From assembly GCF_014202295.1 (NCBI RefSeq), contig NZ_JACHGM010000002.1, forward strand, positions 223,039-287,038: a stretch of 64,000 nucleotides of DNA, given 5' to 3'. How positions within the stretch are numbered: the stretch's first letter is position 1; each line of letters opens with the position of its first letter. The position numbers and the translations under genes were made by a program. The stretch comes from Borreliella afzelii. GTDB taxonomy: Bacteria; Spirochaetota; Spirochaetia; Borreliales; Borreliaceae. The notes below the pieces were generated by a model. It searched no databases and was not told the DNA's origin. It worked only from the letters and a program-made list of their open reading frames with translations. Positions 4,725 through 53,231 of the stretch are shown here, piece after piece.

Positions 4725-4779
4725 AAAATTTAATTTTATATATTCAATGTTTTTTAAAATTGTTTTAAAATCTTTACTT

Positions 4780-5316
4780 ATGTATGTAAGTTCGGGTAAA
4801 TATAAAGGTAGAAAAATTTTATTTCCCAAGACCGGTGCTATTCGTCCCGTGATGTCTCTTGTCAGAGAAGCCTTTTTTTCTATTATTTTTAAAGATATTA
4901 TTAACTCAAAATTTTTGGATGTTTTTGCGGGGACTGGAATAATGTCTATTGAGGCTCTTAGCAGGGGAGCAAGTCTTGCCCATCTTGTTGAATGTAATAA
5001 AAAAACCAAAAGTACATTAGTGAAAAATTTTAGCTTTGTTGAGGAATTTTATAAGTTTTTTTTTCAAAGAGCAGAGGATTTTTTGAGTAAAAAAGATCTT
5101 TTTTATGATTTTATTTATCTTGATCCTCCTTTTAATTATAAAGATAAGATTAATTTGCTTGAGATTATTTTAAAAGGTAAAATTTTAAATGATAAAGTTA
5201 ATATCATTATGCATTGTCCTTTCGGTGAAGATTTAGACATAAATACATCAAAATTTTCAGTTTATAATTTTAAAAGGTATGGGGGATCAAAACTTATTTT
5301 TTTGAAAATATTGTAG
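4780..5316 (+). CDS. rsmD: 16S rRNA (guanine-N2) methyltransferase, RsmD family
   Basis: An AdoMet-dependent methylase that, in the RsmD family, modifies G966 of 16S rRNA. Visible motifs: SSGKYKGRKI at the N-terminus, RPVMSLVREAFFSI, the AdoMet-binding LDVFAGTGIMSIEALSRGA, and catalytic DPPF within YLDPPFNY. The frame opens at an ATG at 4747, but family members begin with a residue or two before SGKYKGR, so the ATG at 4780 (178 residues) is preferred. Neither start has a good ribosome site. The gene diverges from galU and ends 4 bp from the convergent gene to its right. Confidence 0.85.
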   Translation: MYVSSGKYKGRKILFPKTGAIRPVMSLVREAFFSIIFKDIINSKFLDVFAGTGIMSIEALSRGASLAHLVECNKKTKSTLVKNFSFVEEFYKFFFQRAEDFLSKKDLFYDFIYLDPPFNYKDKINLLEIILKGKILNDKVNIIMHCPFGEDLDINTSKFSVYNFKRYGGSKLIFLKIL

Positions 5317-5320
5317 GATT

Positions 5321-6871
5321 TCATTTTCTTTCATGATTAAAGAGAATGAGTTGAATTTCGTTTTTATTTAATTCTGGAATGTTGTTTTGTATTGCGAAAT
5401 CGTCCACATTTTTTAATGGATTTTTTTTGTAATTCCCATTTGTATCTTTTATTAAAATTTCCTTCTTTTCAAGATCCATTATTATTTCTTCTATTTTGTA
5501 AGTCTGGTTTTTTTTGTTTATTATGGATAAATTTGGCATGATGCTCATTTTGTATTCAATAACAGCAGCTTGAAAAAGATTTTCATTATTATTTTTTTTG
5601 TTTATGCTTACTATTTGCCCATAATCAAAAGGTGCAAGTATTGTTAAAAAATTTTCTAACATCTTAATGTCAAATTTTTTGTTTTTTGTTTGCTCGTTTG
5701 ACTCTTTTCTGCTCCAATAGTATTTCCCACTATTTTCTGTTAGGAACTTAACAGTCTCTAATGGATTGGCGCTTTCTTTTATTATTATTGGGTTTACCAA
5801 TTCATCGTAAGTATCTATTATGCAGAAAATTCTAACAAGTTCATGAATAAATTTGTTGTTTTTTAGTTGTGGATATCCAGTAGCATCAAGGTAATCTTTT
5901 TGTCCATTGATTATCATTTTTGTAATAGCCGAAATATCTTCTCTTATTCTAAATAAATTCTTAGCAATGTTAATACTTTTTTCTAAGTGTTCTATTTTTA
6001 ATTTGTGATGTTCTTTTAAATTTTTATCTTTAAGGCTTATTTTGTTTCCTATATTTTCTAATATTGTTATATGCATTAATCCTATTGAGTGCAATAATGA
6101 TCCAAGTGCAGCTTGTAGTATCATATCTTCTGCATAAAAAAATTCTGTAAATTCGGTATATTCAGTTTTATCAAGAAAAAATTTCATAGTTGAGCGAGGC
6201 GCATTTTGTAAAGATCTTATTTTGTTCAAATTTGCAATTGTAATTAGAAAATAAATTGTTGTGTCTACTGAGTGTAGCAGTATTGAATCGCCTTCTGTTT
6301 TAATTTTTCCTTTAAAAAATTCATAATCTCTTCTAGCAGAATATAAATATAATTTTTTTAAAGTTTTTTTATCTTTAAGGTTTTCTTTTGTTCTAAGCTT
6401 TTGAGTATCAAAATAGTGATATATTTCTAATAAAATTTTTTGCAAAGATATTATCTTGTGTCTTGGAAGTATTTTAAAGCTTCCTTCCAATATTTCCTTC
6501 CAATAAATTTGATTGGGCTCAACCTCCATTAATGTATTTATTTTCATGGTCGGTTTTTTCCCTTTGGTAATAAATATTGGGTCGTCTTCTCTAAAGGGTT
6601 TGTATACGTCTTTTAGATTATCTATTAGTTTTTCTCTTAAATAGTTGAGATCATCATTAAAAATTTCTTCATTTATTTTTTTTATTAGGTCTTCATATGA
6701 TACATTTTCTTCTTTTTTAAGTACAGGAATGTACGGTGTATTACCTTTATCAAGTATTTTAATAATTTTTTCATTTACTCTTGTACCAAGTTTTGATAAA
6801 TTTCCTATTCTTGCAAAAATTACGTCTTGTTCATTTAGATCTTTTATTTGTTTTATTTCTTTAAGTATCAC
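5321..6871 (-). CDS. Degenerate HD-GYP domain protein
   Basis: A 516-residue cytoplasmic protein. The C-terminal half aligns by eye with HD-GYP cyclic-di-GMP phosphodiesterases: LLHSVDTTIYFL for the first histidine helix, LLHSIGLMHI where the family has LLHDIGK, and DATGYPQL (Gly332-Tyr333-Pro334) for the GYP motif. The HD aspartate is Ser262, and the HHE stretch before the GYP motif is replaced by NGQKDYL, so most metal ligands are missing. It may bind a nucleotide or a partner without catalysis. The start is a GTG with an AAGGAT site; no in-frame ATG is better placed. It lies 29 bp downstream of two tRNA-Phe genes with no visible terminator between. Confidence 0.7.
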   Translation of the reverse strand: MILKEIKQIKDLNEQDVIFARIGNLSKLGTRVNEKIIKILDKGNTPYIPVLKKEENVSYEDLIKKINEEIFNDDLNYLREKLIDNLKDVYKPFREDDPIFITKGKKPTMKINTLMEVEPNQIYWKEILEGSFKILPRHKIISLQKILLEIYHYFDTQKLRTKENLKDKKTLKKLYLYSARRDYEFFKGKIKTEGDSILLHSVDTTIYFLITIANLNKIRSLQNAPRSTMKFFLDKTEYTEFTEFFYAEDMILQAALGSLLHSIGLMHITILENIGNKISLKDKNLKEHHKLKIEHLEKSINIAKNLFRIREDISAITKMIINGQKDYLDATGYPQLKNNKFIHELVRIFCIIDTYDELVNPIIIKESANPLETVKFLTENSGKYYWSRKESNEQTKNKKFDIKMLENFLTILAPFDYGQIVSINKKNNNENLFQAAVIEYKMSIMPNLSIINKKNQTYKIEEIIMDLEKKEILIKDTNGNYKKNPLKNVDDFAIQNNIPELNKNEIQLILFNHERK

Positions 6872-6899
6872 TTTGAGATCCTTTTAATCTTTAAATAAA

Positions 6900-6972
6900 T
6901 GTCGCCGAGGAGAATCGAACTCCTGACACAAGGATTTTCAGTCCTATGCTCTACCAACTGAGCTACAGCGAC
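6900..6972 (-). tRNA. tRNA-Phe(GAA), second of tandem pair
   Basis: A 73-nt cloverleaf read on the minus strand. The acceptor stem is GTCGCTG/CGGCGAC, the D arm GCTC..GAGC, the anticodon loop CTGAAAA with GAA, the T arm AGGAG-TTCGATT-CTCCT, and the discriminator A at 6900. CCA is not encoded. It is identical to its upstream neighbour except for four bases in the acceptor stem. Confidence 0.95.
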
Positions 6973-6991
6973 AATTGCAATTTAATGAACA

Positions 6992-7084: not shown

Positions 7085-7113
7085 ATTTTTTCATAAGTAT
7101 ATATGTTTGTCAA
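7085..7113 (-). promoter_or_regulatory. Candidate promoter of the tRNA-Phe pair
   Basis: On the minus strand a perfect -35 TTGACA (7108-7113) is followed after 17 bp by AAAAAT (7085-7090), a four-of-six match to TATAAT. Transcription would start about 14 nt before the first tRNA. The rest of the 266-bp gap up to hflC (7065-7330) shows no gene. Confidence 0.45.
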
Positions 7114-7330: not shown

Positions 7331-8302
7331 TCAATCTCTTTTGTGAAGATATTTAAAGAAATCCATATCTGTTGAGAAAATTTTTCTTTTATCTTTTAAT
7401 ACTGCTTTATAGCTTTCTAATGCCTGCCAAAATTTGTAAAATTCAATATTTTTGCTATATGTATTTGAATAAATTCTTGCGGCTTCTTGGTCCCCTTCAG
7501 CTTTTATTTTTGCAGCAGTTGCTTTTGCTTCACTTAATAGGCTTAACTTTTCTTTTTCTATGCTTCCAAGAATTTCTGTTTTTTCAGCCAATCCTATGCT
7601 TCTTTGTTCTTCTGCGATTTGTTGTCTTTCTGAAATCATTCTATTGTTTACAGATTCAATAAGGCTTGGATCATAAGTAACTTTTCTTATTAGTACATCT
7701 ACAATTTCAATTCCAATATCTTTGGTATTGTTGTTTGCTATATTAATTATTTCTTTTTCGATTATTTTTCGCCCTTTTGTTATTTTGTAAATACCATTAA
7801 TTTTTGTTTCTTGCGGGGTGAGTACTCCATTAGACAAACGTTGAATTGGATCGTTTGAGCTTCTTATAATTTCAAGCAAAGGATATTTTGCGATAACTCC
7901 TCTAACAGCGGGTTCAATTGCCGCATCAATTCTAACGTAAGCTCTATTCATTGTTTTTATTGTTGTATAAAATTTATTTATGTCTGCAATTTTCCATCTA
8001 GCTGTTGTATCAATCCATATTAATTGCTTTTCTTCTCCCCCTGTTGGGATTCTTTGAGGCTCTCCATCCCATCTGAGAATAATTTTGGGAAATATTTGTA
8101 CATTTTCAATTAATGGAATTTTATATTTAAGCCCAGCTAAGCTTTCGGTTCTTTGTATCTTTCCAAGTCTAGTGGTTATTGAAATTTCATTTTCTTTTAA
8201 AATATAAATTGGTTGAAAAATAGACAAAATGGTTAAGCAAACTATTATTGTAAAGGTTATGATTTTTATAGTAGATAATAAAAGATTTATTATAAATTTC
8301 AT
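7331..8302 (-). CDS. hflC: HflC, SPFH-family membrane protein
   Basis: With HflK this forms a membrane complex that, in other bacteria, encloses and modulates the FtsH protease. The 323-residue protein has one N-terminal membrane anchor (about residues 7-30) followed by the SPFH/prohibitin domain (SITTRLGKIQRT, GLKYKIPLIENVQ, RWKIAD) and a helical stretch with ERQQIAEEQRSIG and AKATAAKIKAEGDQEAARIY, typical of HflC. The ATG abuts the hflK stop codon, with a GAGGT site inside hflK. The FtsH partner is not in this window. Confidence 0.9.
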   Translation of the reverse strand: MKFIINLLLSTIKIITFTIIVCLTILSIFQPIYILKENEISITTRLGKIQRTESLAGLKYKIPLIENVQIFPKIILRWDGEPQRIPTGGEEKQLIWIDTTARWKIADINKFYTTIKTMNRAYVRIDAAIEPAVRGVIAKYPLLEIIRSSNDPIQRLSNGVLTPQETKINGIYKITKGRKIIEKEIINIANNNTKDIGIEIVDVLIRKVTYDPSLIESVNNRMISERQQIAEEQRSIGLAEKTEILGSIEKEKLSLLSEAKATAAKIKAEGDQEAARIYSNTYSKNIEFYKFWQALESYKAVLKDKRKIFSTDMDFFKYLHKRD

Positions 8303-50537: not shown

Positions 50538-52139
50538 ATGTTATTTATAATATTTTTTATTAGTTCTTCTCTTTTTTCAAAAGAAGTTTATTATAGATTT
50601 GCAGATTATTCTGTTAATTACAACATAGTAGGTAAATATGAGATTACAAAAGAAGAGTCTGAGGAAGAGTATGGATATAAATTTACTTATGATCGTAATA
50701 ATAATCTTATTTTAGTTGATTATATTGGTAAGCTTAGCATTTTAATGCCTTCTTTTTTTAATGCAAACCAAATTAAAATAGAAAGGTCTAAACACAGTGA
50801 AAGGCGCATATTTCTAAATAGGGGACTTGCTTTTAAGAATAATAATGGTGTTTACATTGAGCATATAGAGTATATGAGTGATGGTAGGATTAAAAATATT
50901 TTTAATTATAATAGATCTAATGAAATGGTTAGGGATAGATACGATGTTTCTTATTATCATTTTTTATACGATAATGAGAGAGAGTTTAGTGTTTACAGAT
51001 TTAATGAATCGGGAATTCAAATCAAAGATTCAAATAATGTGTATTTTGCAAAGATCAGTTATGATCATGCCAAATTTGTTAAAACTGTTTTATATTACGA
51101 TGAAAATGGTTATATTGTAAGATCAAAAAATGGTACTTGTGGGTTTAGATTAACTTATGATGCCAATCATAATCTTATTAAAGAAGAATATCTTGATAAA
51201 TCAGCTTACACCGTTTCAAATCCATTTTCTGTAGCTACTAAAATATATCATTATGATGTTGATGGAAAAGTTATTGAGATTTTAAATTATGATATTAATA
51301 ACAATTTAACTCCTGATGAAAATAATGTAGCAATTTATCGTTATGAATATTATTTTAAAGATAAAGATTGTTATTACAAAGAATATAATTATGACAATAA
51401 TAATAATTTAACAATCAGTCAAAATGGTTATGCCATGAAGAAGACTATTTTTTATATCCAAAATAATGAAAAAAGGATAATAAACTATAGTAATAAAATC
51501 AATAAAAATTATAATAGGGATATTCCAACTGTTTATGAAGAAAAGTATGAAATAATGGATAATTTTAAAGGCATTGCTATTTATAGTTATAAATATGATG
51601 ACAAGTTTTATCTAATAGAAAATATTTTTTTTGATAAAAATTTTAATTTAATAGCCGATGTCAAAGGTGTAATGATTTACAGATATTCTTACGACAAAGA
51701 AGGATTTTTGATTGCTCAAGAACATTTTGGTGGAGATTTTGTTAATCCAATAGATAATTTTGAAGGAGTTTCAAAGTATAAATTTAGTTACGACTCTAAT
51801 GGCAATATGGTTTCAAAGAAAAATTATTCTAAGGATGGGGTTTTGGTTGCTGATTGTAATTTTGTTTTTGAATATTTATATGAATATGATAAGCAAAATA
51901 GGCTTATTTCTCAAAAAAATTTTGGCAGCTTAGGACAATTGCAGGACGATATTCATGGAGTTAGTGTTTATAAATATGAATACAATAAATTTGGGAAAAT
52001 ATCAAAGCAGTCAAATCATGGTCCGGATTTGAGATTAAGAGATGATGTTGGGGGATTTTCAATTTATAAGTGGATTTATGATGCTAGAGGTAATTTAATA
52101 GATTTCCAAAAATTTGATTCTTTGGGTAACTTAATCTAA
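50538..52139 (+). CDS. Secreted tyrosine-rich repeat protein (YD/Rhs-like repeats)
   Basis: A 533-residue protein from ATG 50538 (AAGGA site) with signal segment LFIIFFISSSLFSKE. The rest is built of irregular ~35-residue units with the pattern Tyr-x-Tyr-x-x-Asp/Asn...Gly/Asn-Asn-Leu...Asp-x-x-Gly/Asn-Val (YKFTYDRNNNLILVDYIG, FRLTYDANHNLIKEEYLD, YKFSYDSNGNMVSKKNYS, YLYEYDKQNRLISQKNFG, YKWIYDARGNLIDFQKFD). This resembles YD repeats of Rhs/teneurin-type surface proteins, without any toxin or core domain. The frame extends upstream to 50436, but that part overlaps the small gene and lacks a ribosome site. Confidence 0.75.
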   Translation: MLFIIFFISSSLFSKEVYYRFADYSVNYNIVGKYEITKEESEEEYGYKFTYDRNNNLILVDYIGKLSILMPSFFNANQIKIERSKHSERRIFLNRGLAFKNNNGVYIEHIEYMSDGRIKNIFNYNRSNEMVRDRYDVSYYHFLYDNEREFSVYRFNESGIQIKDSNNVYFAKISYDHAKFVKTVLYYDENGYIVRSKNGTCGFRLTYDANHNLIKEEYLDKSAYTVSNPFSVATKIYHYDVDGKVIEILNYDINNNLTPDENNVAIYRYEYYFKDKDCYYKEYNYDNNNNLTISQNGYAMKKTIFYIQNNEKRIINYSNKINKNYNRDIPTVYEEKYEIMDNFKGIAIYSYKYDDKFYLIENIFFDKNFNLIADVKGVMIYRYSYDKEGFLIAQEHFGGDFVNPIDNFEGVSKYKFSYDSNGNMVSKKNYSKDGVLVADCNFVFEYLYEYDKQNRLISQKNFGSLGQLQDDIHGVSVYKYEYNKFGKISKQSNHGPDLRLRDDVGGFSIYKWIYDARGNLIDFQKFDSLGNLI

Positions 52140-53231
52140 ATATTTTCTGTTTTCATATTTTCCTATATTACATAGTAATTCATAATGACTTCTTTTAGAA
52201 AATTTACTCATTTCATTTATGCTTAATTTTTCTGATACAATTTCCACTTTTGAACCCGTTTCAACTTTTAAGTCTTTAGGAATTTCTACTATTGTTAGAT
52301 TCATGCAAACCTTTCCCCTTATTTTACATTTTTTATTGTTTATTAAAAAATAAAAATTATTGTTTATATTTTGAGGTATTCCATCAAAATATCCGATTGG
52401 AATAATTCCTATTTTCATATCCTCTTTGGCTTGAAATGTACCTGAATATGAGATTTTTTCACCTTTTTTCACATTTTTGATAAATACTACTTTTGAAAAT
52501 AAATTTAATACAGGTTTAAAATTTAGAGTAGTTTTTTTGTTTTTTAGTGTTGGACAATAACCATAAAGAATAAGACCCGGTCTTACCATATTAAATTGGG
52601 GATTTAGTTTGTAGTTAATAATGTGTCCCGAATTAGAAATATGGACAAATTTTGGATTTATATTTTTTTGTTTAAGCGTTTCCAAAAAAAATAAGAATTG
52701 CTCTATTTGTTTTTGTGTGATTTTAAAGTTTTCTGTTGTTGGGAGATGCGAGCAGACCCCTTCTAGTTCTAGAAATTTTGAATTTTGAATATATGTGGCT
52801 ATTTCAAGAGCGCTATCTATTTTTATTCCATATCTATTCATGCCAACATCAATTTTTAAGTGGACTTTTATTTTCTTTTTTTGCAATGCACATTCTTTTT
52901 CTATTAAAAATAGATATTCAAAATCAGCAACAAATGGTAATAATTCAAGTTTAATCAAATTTTTAATTTCTTTTTTATCTACTTTAATGTACATCAATAT
53001 TTTTGTACTTTTATCAATTTTTTTAAGTGTTTTGGCATCTTCAATATTGGAAAGTCCAAAATAATTTATTTTTTTTGCTTTAAAAAATTTAAAGATATTT
53101 ATAAGTCCGTGACCATATGCGTCGCCTTTTAAGGTAGCTACTATTTCTTTTTCACCAATTTTATTTTTAATTAAGTTTAAGTTATGCTCCAAATTATTTA
53201 AATTTATTATTATTGTTTTGTTACTACTCAT
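52131..53231 (-). CDS. alr: Alanine racemase
   Basis: A PLP enzyme giving D-alanine for peptidoglycan. The 366-residue protein has the PLP lysine motif VATLKGDAYGHG, then LKIDVGMNRYGI, SNSGHI, MVRPGLILYGY, and the C-terminal domain with ISYSGTF and GYFDGIP, including the catalytic Tyr of SYSGTF. The 3' end overlaps the convergent repeat-protein gene by 9 bp. No ribosome site is evident before the ATG. Downstream users are ddl (12.3 kb) and the Mur pathway. Confidence 0.94.
   Translation of the reverse strand: MSSNKTIIINLNNLEHNLNLIKNKIGEKEIVATLKGDAYGHGLINIFKFFKAKKINYFGLSNIEDAKTLKKIDKSTKILMYIKVDKKEIKNLIKLELLPFVADFEYLFLIEKECALQKKKIKVHLKIDVGMNRYGIKIDSALEIATYIQNSKFLELEGVCSHLPTTENFKITQKQIEQFLFFLETLKQKNINPKFVHISNSGHIINYKLNPQFNMVRPGLILYGYCPTLKNKKTTLNFKPVLNLFSKVVFIKNVKKGEKISYSGTFQAKEDMKIGIIPIGYFDGIPQNINNNFYFLINNKKCKIRGKVCMNLTIVEIPKDLKVETGSKVEIVSEKLSINEMSKFSKRSHYELLCNIGKYENRKYLD

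Follow-up and report, generated by a model that had tools for sequence, protein, structure and literature searches.

A conserved spirochaete family of HD-GYP-fold proteins, including the bb0205 product of Borreliaceae, predicted to lack the canonical metal site

The reference for catalysis by HD-GYP proteins used here is PmGH, in which three irons are bound by eight residues (E185, H189, H221, D222, H250, H276, H277, and D305); alanine at six of these eight ligands abolishes activity, and D183, K225, and D308 matter too (PMC4159591). In the same protein, R314 and K317 contact guanine and Y285 contacts phosphate, and the R314A and K317A variants still hydrolyse c-di-GMP (PMC4159591). Degenerate HD-GYP proteins are already known. 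DvhD of Desulfovibrio vulgaris (PDB 9rbz, 9rc0), a membrane PAS/dCache receptor, has SQ in place of HD and MN in place of HH and binds c-di-GMP (Kd ~99 nM) without hydrolysis; its phosphate contacts are R650 and K582/Y621, the base is clamped by Y652, and the R650A and Y652A/R653A variants are less stabilised by c-di-GMP (PMC13090378). Bd1817 of Bdellovibrio bacteriovorus (PDB 3tm8), likewise inactive, departs from the canonical GYP motif; its HD dyad is retained, as is a di-iron centre (PMC4159591). The degenerate HD-GYPs LIC_10122, LIC_10138, and LIC_10139 of Leptospira interrogans have a predicted loss of both metal-binding and c-di-GMP-binding residues (PMC12943098). In Borrelia, the c-di-GMP network is very small: PdeB (BB0374) was published as an active c-di-GMP phosphodiesterase, no further phosphodiesterase activity was reported in the lysate of a pdeA pdeB double mutant (PMC4013479), and another receptor in addition to PlzA has been postulated but not found.

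The gene studied here was located in the window (the whole stretch of 64,000 nucleotides analysed, from a Borreliaceae genome of 1.33 Mb) between hflC and rsmD. The locus tags of hflK/hflC and RsmD have been published (PMC4850261 and PMC9108270, respectively), and the gene between bb0204 and bb0206 is therefore the bb0205 orthologue; full-text literature searches revealed no open-access paper under the bb0205 locus tag. The locus comprised the following elements:

4747–5316, forward strand: rsmD (bb0206), convergent neighbour, also present beside two distant spirochaete relatives
5321–6871, reverse strand: bb0205 orthologue, 516 aa, HD-GYP-fold protein predicted to lack the canonical metal site (open reading frame and conserved start codon)
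6899–6973, reverse strand: tRNA-Phe (GAA), second copy, 27 bases before the bb0205 start codon
6992–7064, reverse strand: tRNA-Phe (GAA), first copy
7085–7113, reverse strand: promoter-like TTGACA-17-AAAAAT, 20 bases before the first tRNA-Phe (consensus match only)
7331–8302, reverse strand: hflC (bb0204; numbering from PMC4850261)

The bb0205 orthologue begins with GTG at 6871, and its relatives use ATG or GTG at the aligned codon. It should be noted that, in a mutant carrying an lp17 intergenic deletion, the convergent bb_0206, lying 4 bases from the bb0205 orthologue, is reported to be about 4.6-fold down, with plzA also down (PMC9108270, Table 5).

The two tRNA genes directly upstream, which the sequence-only reading had regarded as an odd context for a signalling protein, are real, and both encode tRNA-Phe. 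No terminator-like site was found between the promoter-like site and the bb0205 gene, so co-transcription of the tRNA genes with bb0205 is possible. At the 36 orthologous Borreliaceae loci, two tRNA-Phe copies were present in the Lyme group (three at locus L011) and one in nearly all relapsing-fever species (two at locus L019), whereas none of the 13 distant family loci carried tRNA genes. As a functional clue this neighbourhood was consequently rejected, given its absence from the distant loci and the tandem copies being mainly those of the Lyme group; the tRNA context is a Borreliaceae arrangement incidental to the function of the protein.

The HD-GYP layout proposed for the C-terminal half of the protein was borne out by Pfam HD_5, by profile comparison against shuffled controls, and by AlphaFold with Foldseek. 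Two regions were delimited:

5747–6289, reverse strand: HD-GYP-like core, residues 195–375 (Pfam HD_5, hhalign, helices in the model)
5387–5626, reverse strand: C-terminal beta-rich region, residues 416–495 (model)

Pfam HD_5 matched residues 255–385 (E = 5 × 10−6, 26.8 bits, slightly under the curated 27.2), and 18 of 25 family members matched it at E ≤ 0.01; for HDOD there was no match at E ≤ 10 in the bb0205 orthologue and none at E ≤ 0.01 in the 25 members. The family profile of the HD core scored 49.7 against ten spirochaete HD-GYPs (hhalign) and 41.8 against seven PdeB-type HD-GYPs in a profile–profile comparison; 15 column-shuffled controls reached at most 17.4 against the ten spirochaete HD-GYPs and at most 18.6 over both comparisons. 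The full-length AlphaFold2 model, built from an alignment of 25 family members, had a pLDDT of 84 and a pTM of 0.89, and a Foldseek search with it found the chains of Bd1817 as the only PDB matches with E ≤ 0.001. The core-only model was poorer (pLDDT 75) and had DvhD as its top fold match, with a probability of 1.00 but E = 0.05. Thus, the closest folds, Bd1817 and, weakly, DvhD, both belong to inactive HD-GYPs; the assignment of the HD-GYP fold is sound, and the finer ranking of folds is weak. Querying the PDB by sequence, whether with the bb0205 orthologue alone or with the family profile, returned chance-level matches only, and the NCBIfam NosR model matched 17 of the 25 members with 27 bits against a cut-off of 400, a match that therefore reflects the HD core only. 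The likeness of the N- and C-terminal parts to PdeB-type proteins, good in a full-length alignment, did not exceed that of shuffled columns when assessed region by region, and the similarity of residues 416–495 to the PdeB C-terminal region was not significant on its own.

The positions corresponding to the catalytic and ligand-binding residues of the described proteins were assigned as follows:

6272–6274, reverse strand: His200 at the PmGH H189 position, start of the first core helix (motif spacing and helix 195–220 of the model)
6086–6091, reverse strand: His261-Ser262 instead of the HD dyad
5894–5902, reverse strand: Gln324-Lys325-Asp326 instead of His-His-Glu (alignment)
5870–5887, reverse strand: DATGYP, remnant of D-G-T-G-Y-P
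5831–5845, reverse strand: His343-Glu344-x-x-Arg347, outside the canonical HD-GYP signature (invariant in 49 of 49 members)
5777–5815, reverse strand: D353-x-Y355-D356 ... N360-P361-I-I-I-K365, last core helix (alignment; roles from PMC4159591 and PMC13090378)

The computed alignment supplied the HD and HHE positions and those after them; S196 and H200 were placed by motif spacing, an insertion in that region causing the automatic alignment to slip. At the eight PmGH ligand positions, the bb0205 orthologue has S196, H200, H261, S262, S299, Q324, K325, and D353, i.e., three of the eight ligands remain; the K225 and D308 positions are L265 and D356. The His-Ser dyad and the replacement of the HHE stretch by NGQKDYL were thus as the sequence-only reading had described them, this heptapeptide occupying residues 322–328 immediately before DATGYP (329–334) and the exact HHE equivalents being Gln324-Lys325-Asp326. 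Among 49 family members (36 from Borreliaceae and 13 distant spirochaete sequences, two of which, L077 and L079, are partial), the Asp of HD was never Asp: it was S in 18 of 18 Lyme-group and P in 18 of 18 relapsing-fever species, and A, N, K, S, E, or G elsewhere; two distant members also had Ser for the His of HD. Neither His position of HHE was occupied by His in any member. His200 was invariant in Borreliaceae and replaced by Gln in 4 of 12 distant members. GYP was kept in 11 of 18 Lyme-group species, the other seven having GHP, and lost in the relapsing-fever group, where the Tyr was gone from most species. As judged from the alignment, the canonical metal site is gone in the bb0205 orthologue and, at the Asp of HD and both His of HHE, in all 49 members, and after this shared loss GYP was further lost in the relapsing-fever group only. 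The family has instead its own invariant positions, namely, H343, E344, R347, F349, Y355, D356, and P361.

The residues that contact c-di-GMP in the described proteins were replaced as well. The R314/R650 and Y652 positions are Ile362 and Ile364 in the bb0205 orthologue and were never Arg or Tyr in the 49 members, and the K582 position is Leu265, with Lys in none of the 49. The K317/R653 position (365) was Lys or Arg in all Borreliaceae (Lys in most) but in just 7 of the 13 other members. In the same alignment, the control motif R-x-[YF]-[RK] was kept in 14 of 14 other spirochaete HD-GYPs, and three PdeB sequences keep K-x-Y-K. The aligned residues thus indicate a family lacking both the metal ligands and the usual c-di-GMP-contacting Arg and Tyr. 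The loss of Arg and Tyr in 49 of 49 members makes a canonical c-di-GMP receptor less likely; since PmGH R314A and K317A still hydrolyse c-di-GMP, it is evidence against canonical binding and not proof. Of the proposal of a catalysis-free receptor, therefore, the part concerning the metal site was upheld, and the idea of a c-di-GMP receptor was weakened.

Comparison with the described systems places the family as follows. Like DvhD, the bb0205 orthologue has an HD-GYP fold in which other residues stand in for the HD and HH metal motifs, but DvhD keeps the c-di-GMP-contacting Lys, Arg, and Tyr that are all lost in the bb0205 family. Bd1817 is the closest full-length fold, but the bb0205 family cannot have its form with a retained HD dyad and di-iron centre. 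The L. interrogans degenerate HD-GYPs resemble the family in their predicted dual loss of residues. PdeB, the other HD_5 protein of the window's genome, also has an atypical dyad (HK for HD), with Tyr for PmGH H250, Lys for H277, and Ser for D305 and D308, but differs from the bb0205 family in having preserved GYP, K-x-Y-K, and, of HHE, the Glu together with one His. By motif, PdeB (L037: 1231–2367, reverse strand; G000: C2, about 51900–52400) groups with the spirochaete HD-GYP type having HEIGM for HDIGK.

The gene was found in 36 of 36 Borreliaceae searched, at a single location, intact and with no internal stops. Profile searches of 393 genomes in the phylum revealed six further relatives of full or nearly full length. 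Scanning GTDB genome contigs revealed more, among them Candidatus Marispirochaeta associata and several MAGs of Spirochaetales; no full-length relatives beyond these were found in the sampled phylum. The hypothesis of a Borrelia-specific loss of the metal site was rejected, as the distant spirochaete members share the loss. Convergent rsmD is also the next gene in Candidatus Marispirochaeta (L078) and at a MAG locus (L073), and a third distant relative (L067) lies about 5 kb from hflKC; these common neighbours support orthology. The third relative (L067: 908–6772, G130) is situated near hflC, hflK, a TPR protein, and hisB/hisG/hisZ-like genes, and the TPR-his block also occurs in Marispirochaeta (L078); in Borrelia, his genes are absent at the bb0205 place, so that hflKC beside bb0205 may be what is left of this gene order. 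Pairwise dN/dS against other Lyme-group species was approximately 0.07–0.14. Constraint was highest in the HD core (0.05–0.08) and lower in the N- and C-terminal parts (0.13–0.25); values against relapsing-fever species are rough because synonymous sites are near saturation. The bb0205 gene is thus under purifying selection, strongest in the degenerate HD core. Its presence in all Borreliaceae, this selection, and the common rsmD neighbour therefore indicate an old, maintained family.

These data are best explained by the bb0205 orthologue being a non-catalytic HD-GYP-fold protein that acts by binding a partner or a non-canonical ligand (probability of about 0.6). It would be an old spirochaete paralogue that had already lost its metal centre when Borreliaceae emerged and that has been retained for what the fold itself does. 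The target bound may be a protein or a ligand (c-di-GMP in its canonical binding mode excepted), and the putative contact surface is the face of the former active site, now remodelled, with the invariant residues H343-E344-x-x-R347 ... Y355-D356 ... P361; the protein is probably a regulator or scaffold rather than an enzyme. The absence of residual activity in the pdeA pdeB mutant fits a non-catalytic bb0205 protein. Against such a protein stands PdeB, in which several ligands are missing and which is yet reported as active, and a catalytic role is conceivable for the invariant His and Glu adjacent to the former pocket. The premise that active HD-GYPs need the classical residues also has an exception in this genus, since PdeB was published as active although it has HK for HD, Lys for the second His of HHE, and Ser for the Asp ligand of the last core helix. 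Less probable is a spirochaete-specific HD-GYP-derived family in which the metal centre and the c-di-GMP grip would have been swapped for a new conserved site (HExxRxF...YDE..NP) that binds a ligand or partner or performs a different reaction.

A DvhD-type receptor, whose core would bind c-di-GMP without metal and switch conformation, is unlikely: such binding is a property of DvhD itself, which is also the top match of the core model; the presence in B. burgdorferi of a receptor additional to PlzA has been considered possible in a review (PMC4013479), and Lys365 is kept in most Borreliaceae, but the positions of DvhD R650, Y652, and K582 are never Arg, Tyr, or Lys in the 49 members, and the GYP Tyr is missing in most relapsing-fever species. 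Rather less probable would be a metalloenzyme acting on another substrate with a rebuilt centre composed, for example, of H200, H261, H267, Q324, D326, H343, E344, and D353. All 49 members have H343 and E344, and H261, H267, and H200 do not vary within Borreliaceae, but in distant members H200 is Gln in four, H261 is Ser in two, and H267 is Gln in three, and D353 is A, K, H, or E in six members; only H343 and E344 are therefore constant. The retention by PdeB of only part of the PmGH ligands lends some plausibility to weak phosphodiesterase activity on c-di-GMP or pGpG at an atypical site; this is nonetheless very improbable, as the bb0205 orthologue has neither the His and Glu of HHE nor the substrate motif kept by PdeB, and the double mutant was reported without residual activity. 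The progressive loss of GYP in the relapsing-fever group might suggest a decaying pseudogene or neutral relic, which is effectively excluded by the intact reading frames in 36 of 36 Borreliaceae and the low dN/dS (~0.1, lowest in the core).

What is new in comparison with the described degenerate HD-GYPs is a conserved family with its own signature and a predicted dual loss of metal and nucleotide residues, found in every Borreliaceae genome searched. In so small a network, the core-genome HD-GYP-fold protein bb0205 is a concrete candidate node, for which the residues predict that metal and hydrolysis are absent and that c-di-GMP is bound in the canonical way weakly or not at all. If the preferred non-catalytic reading is true, an enzyme fold was converted long ago, and the conversion would be traceable from free-living spirochaetes to tick-borne pathogens. 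One of the sequences sampled lies on a cave-metagenome contig titled Borreliella garinii (DYOB01000178.1, locus L079), which belongs to a genome of about 3.4 Mb; the bb0205-family copy there resembles the distant group rather than Borrelia, and the species label looks wrong.
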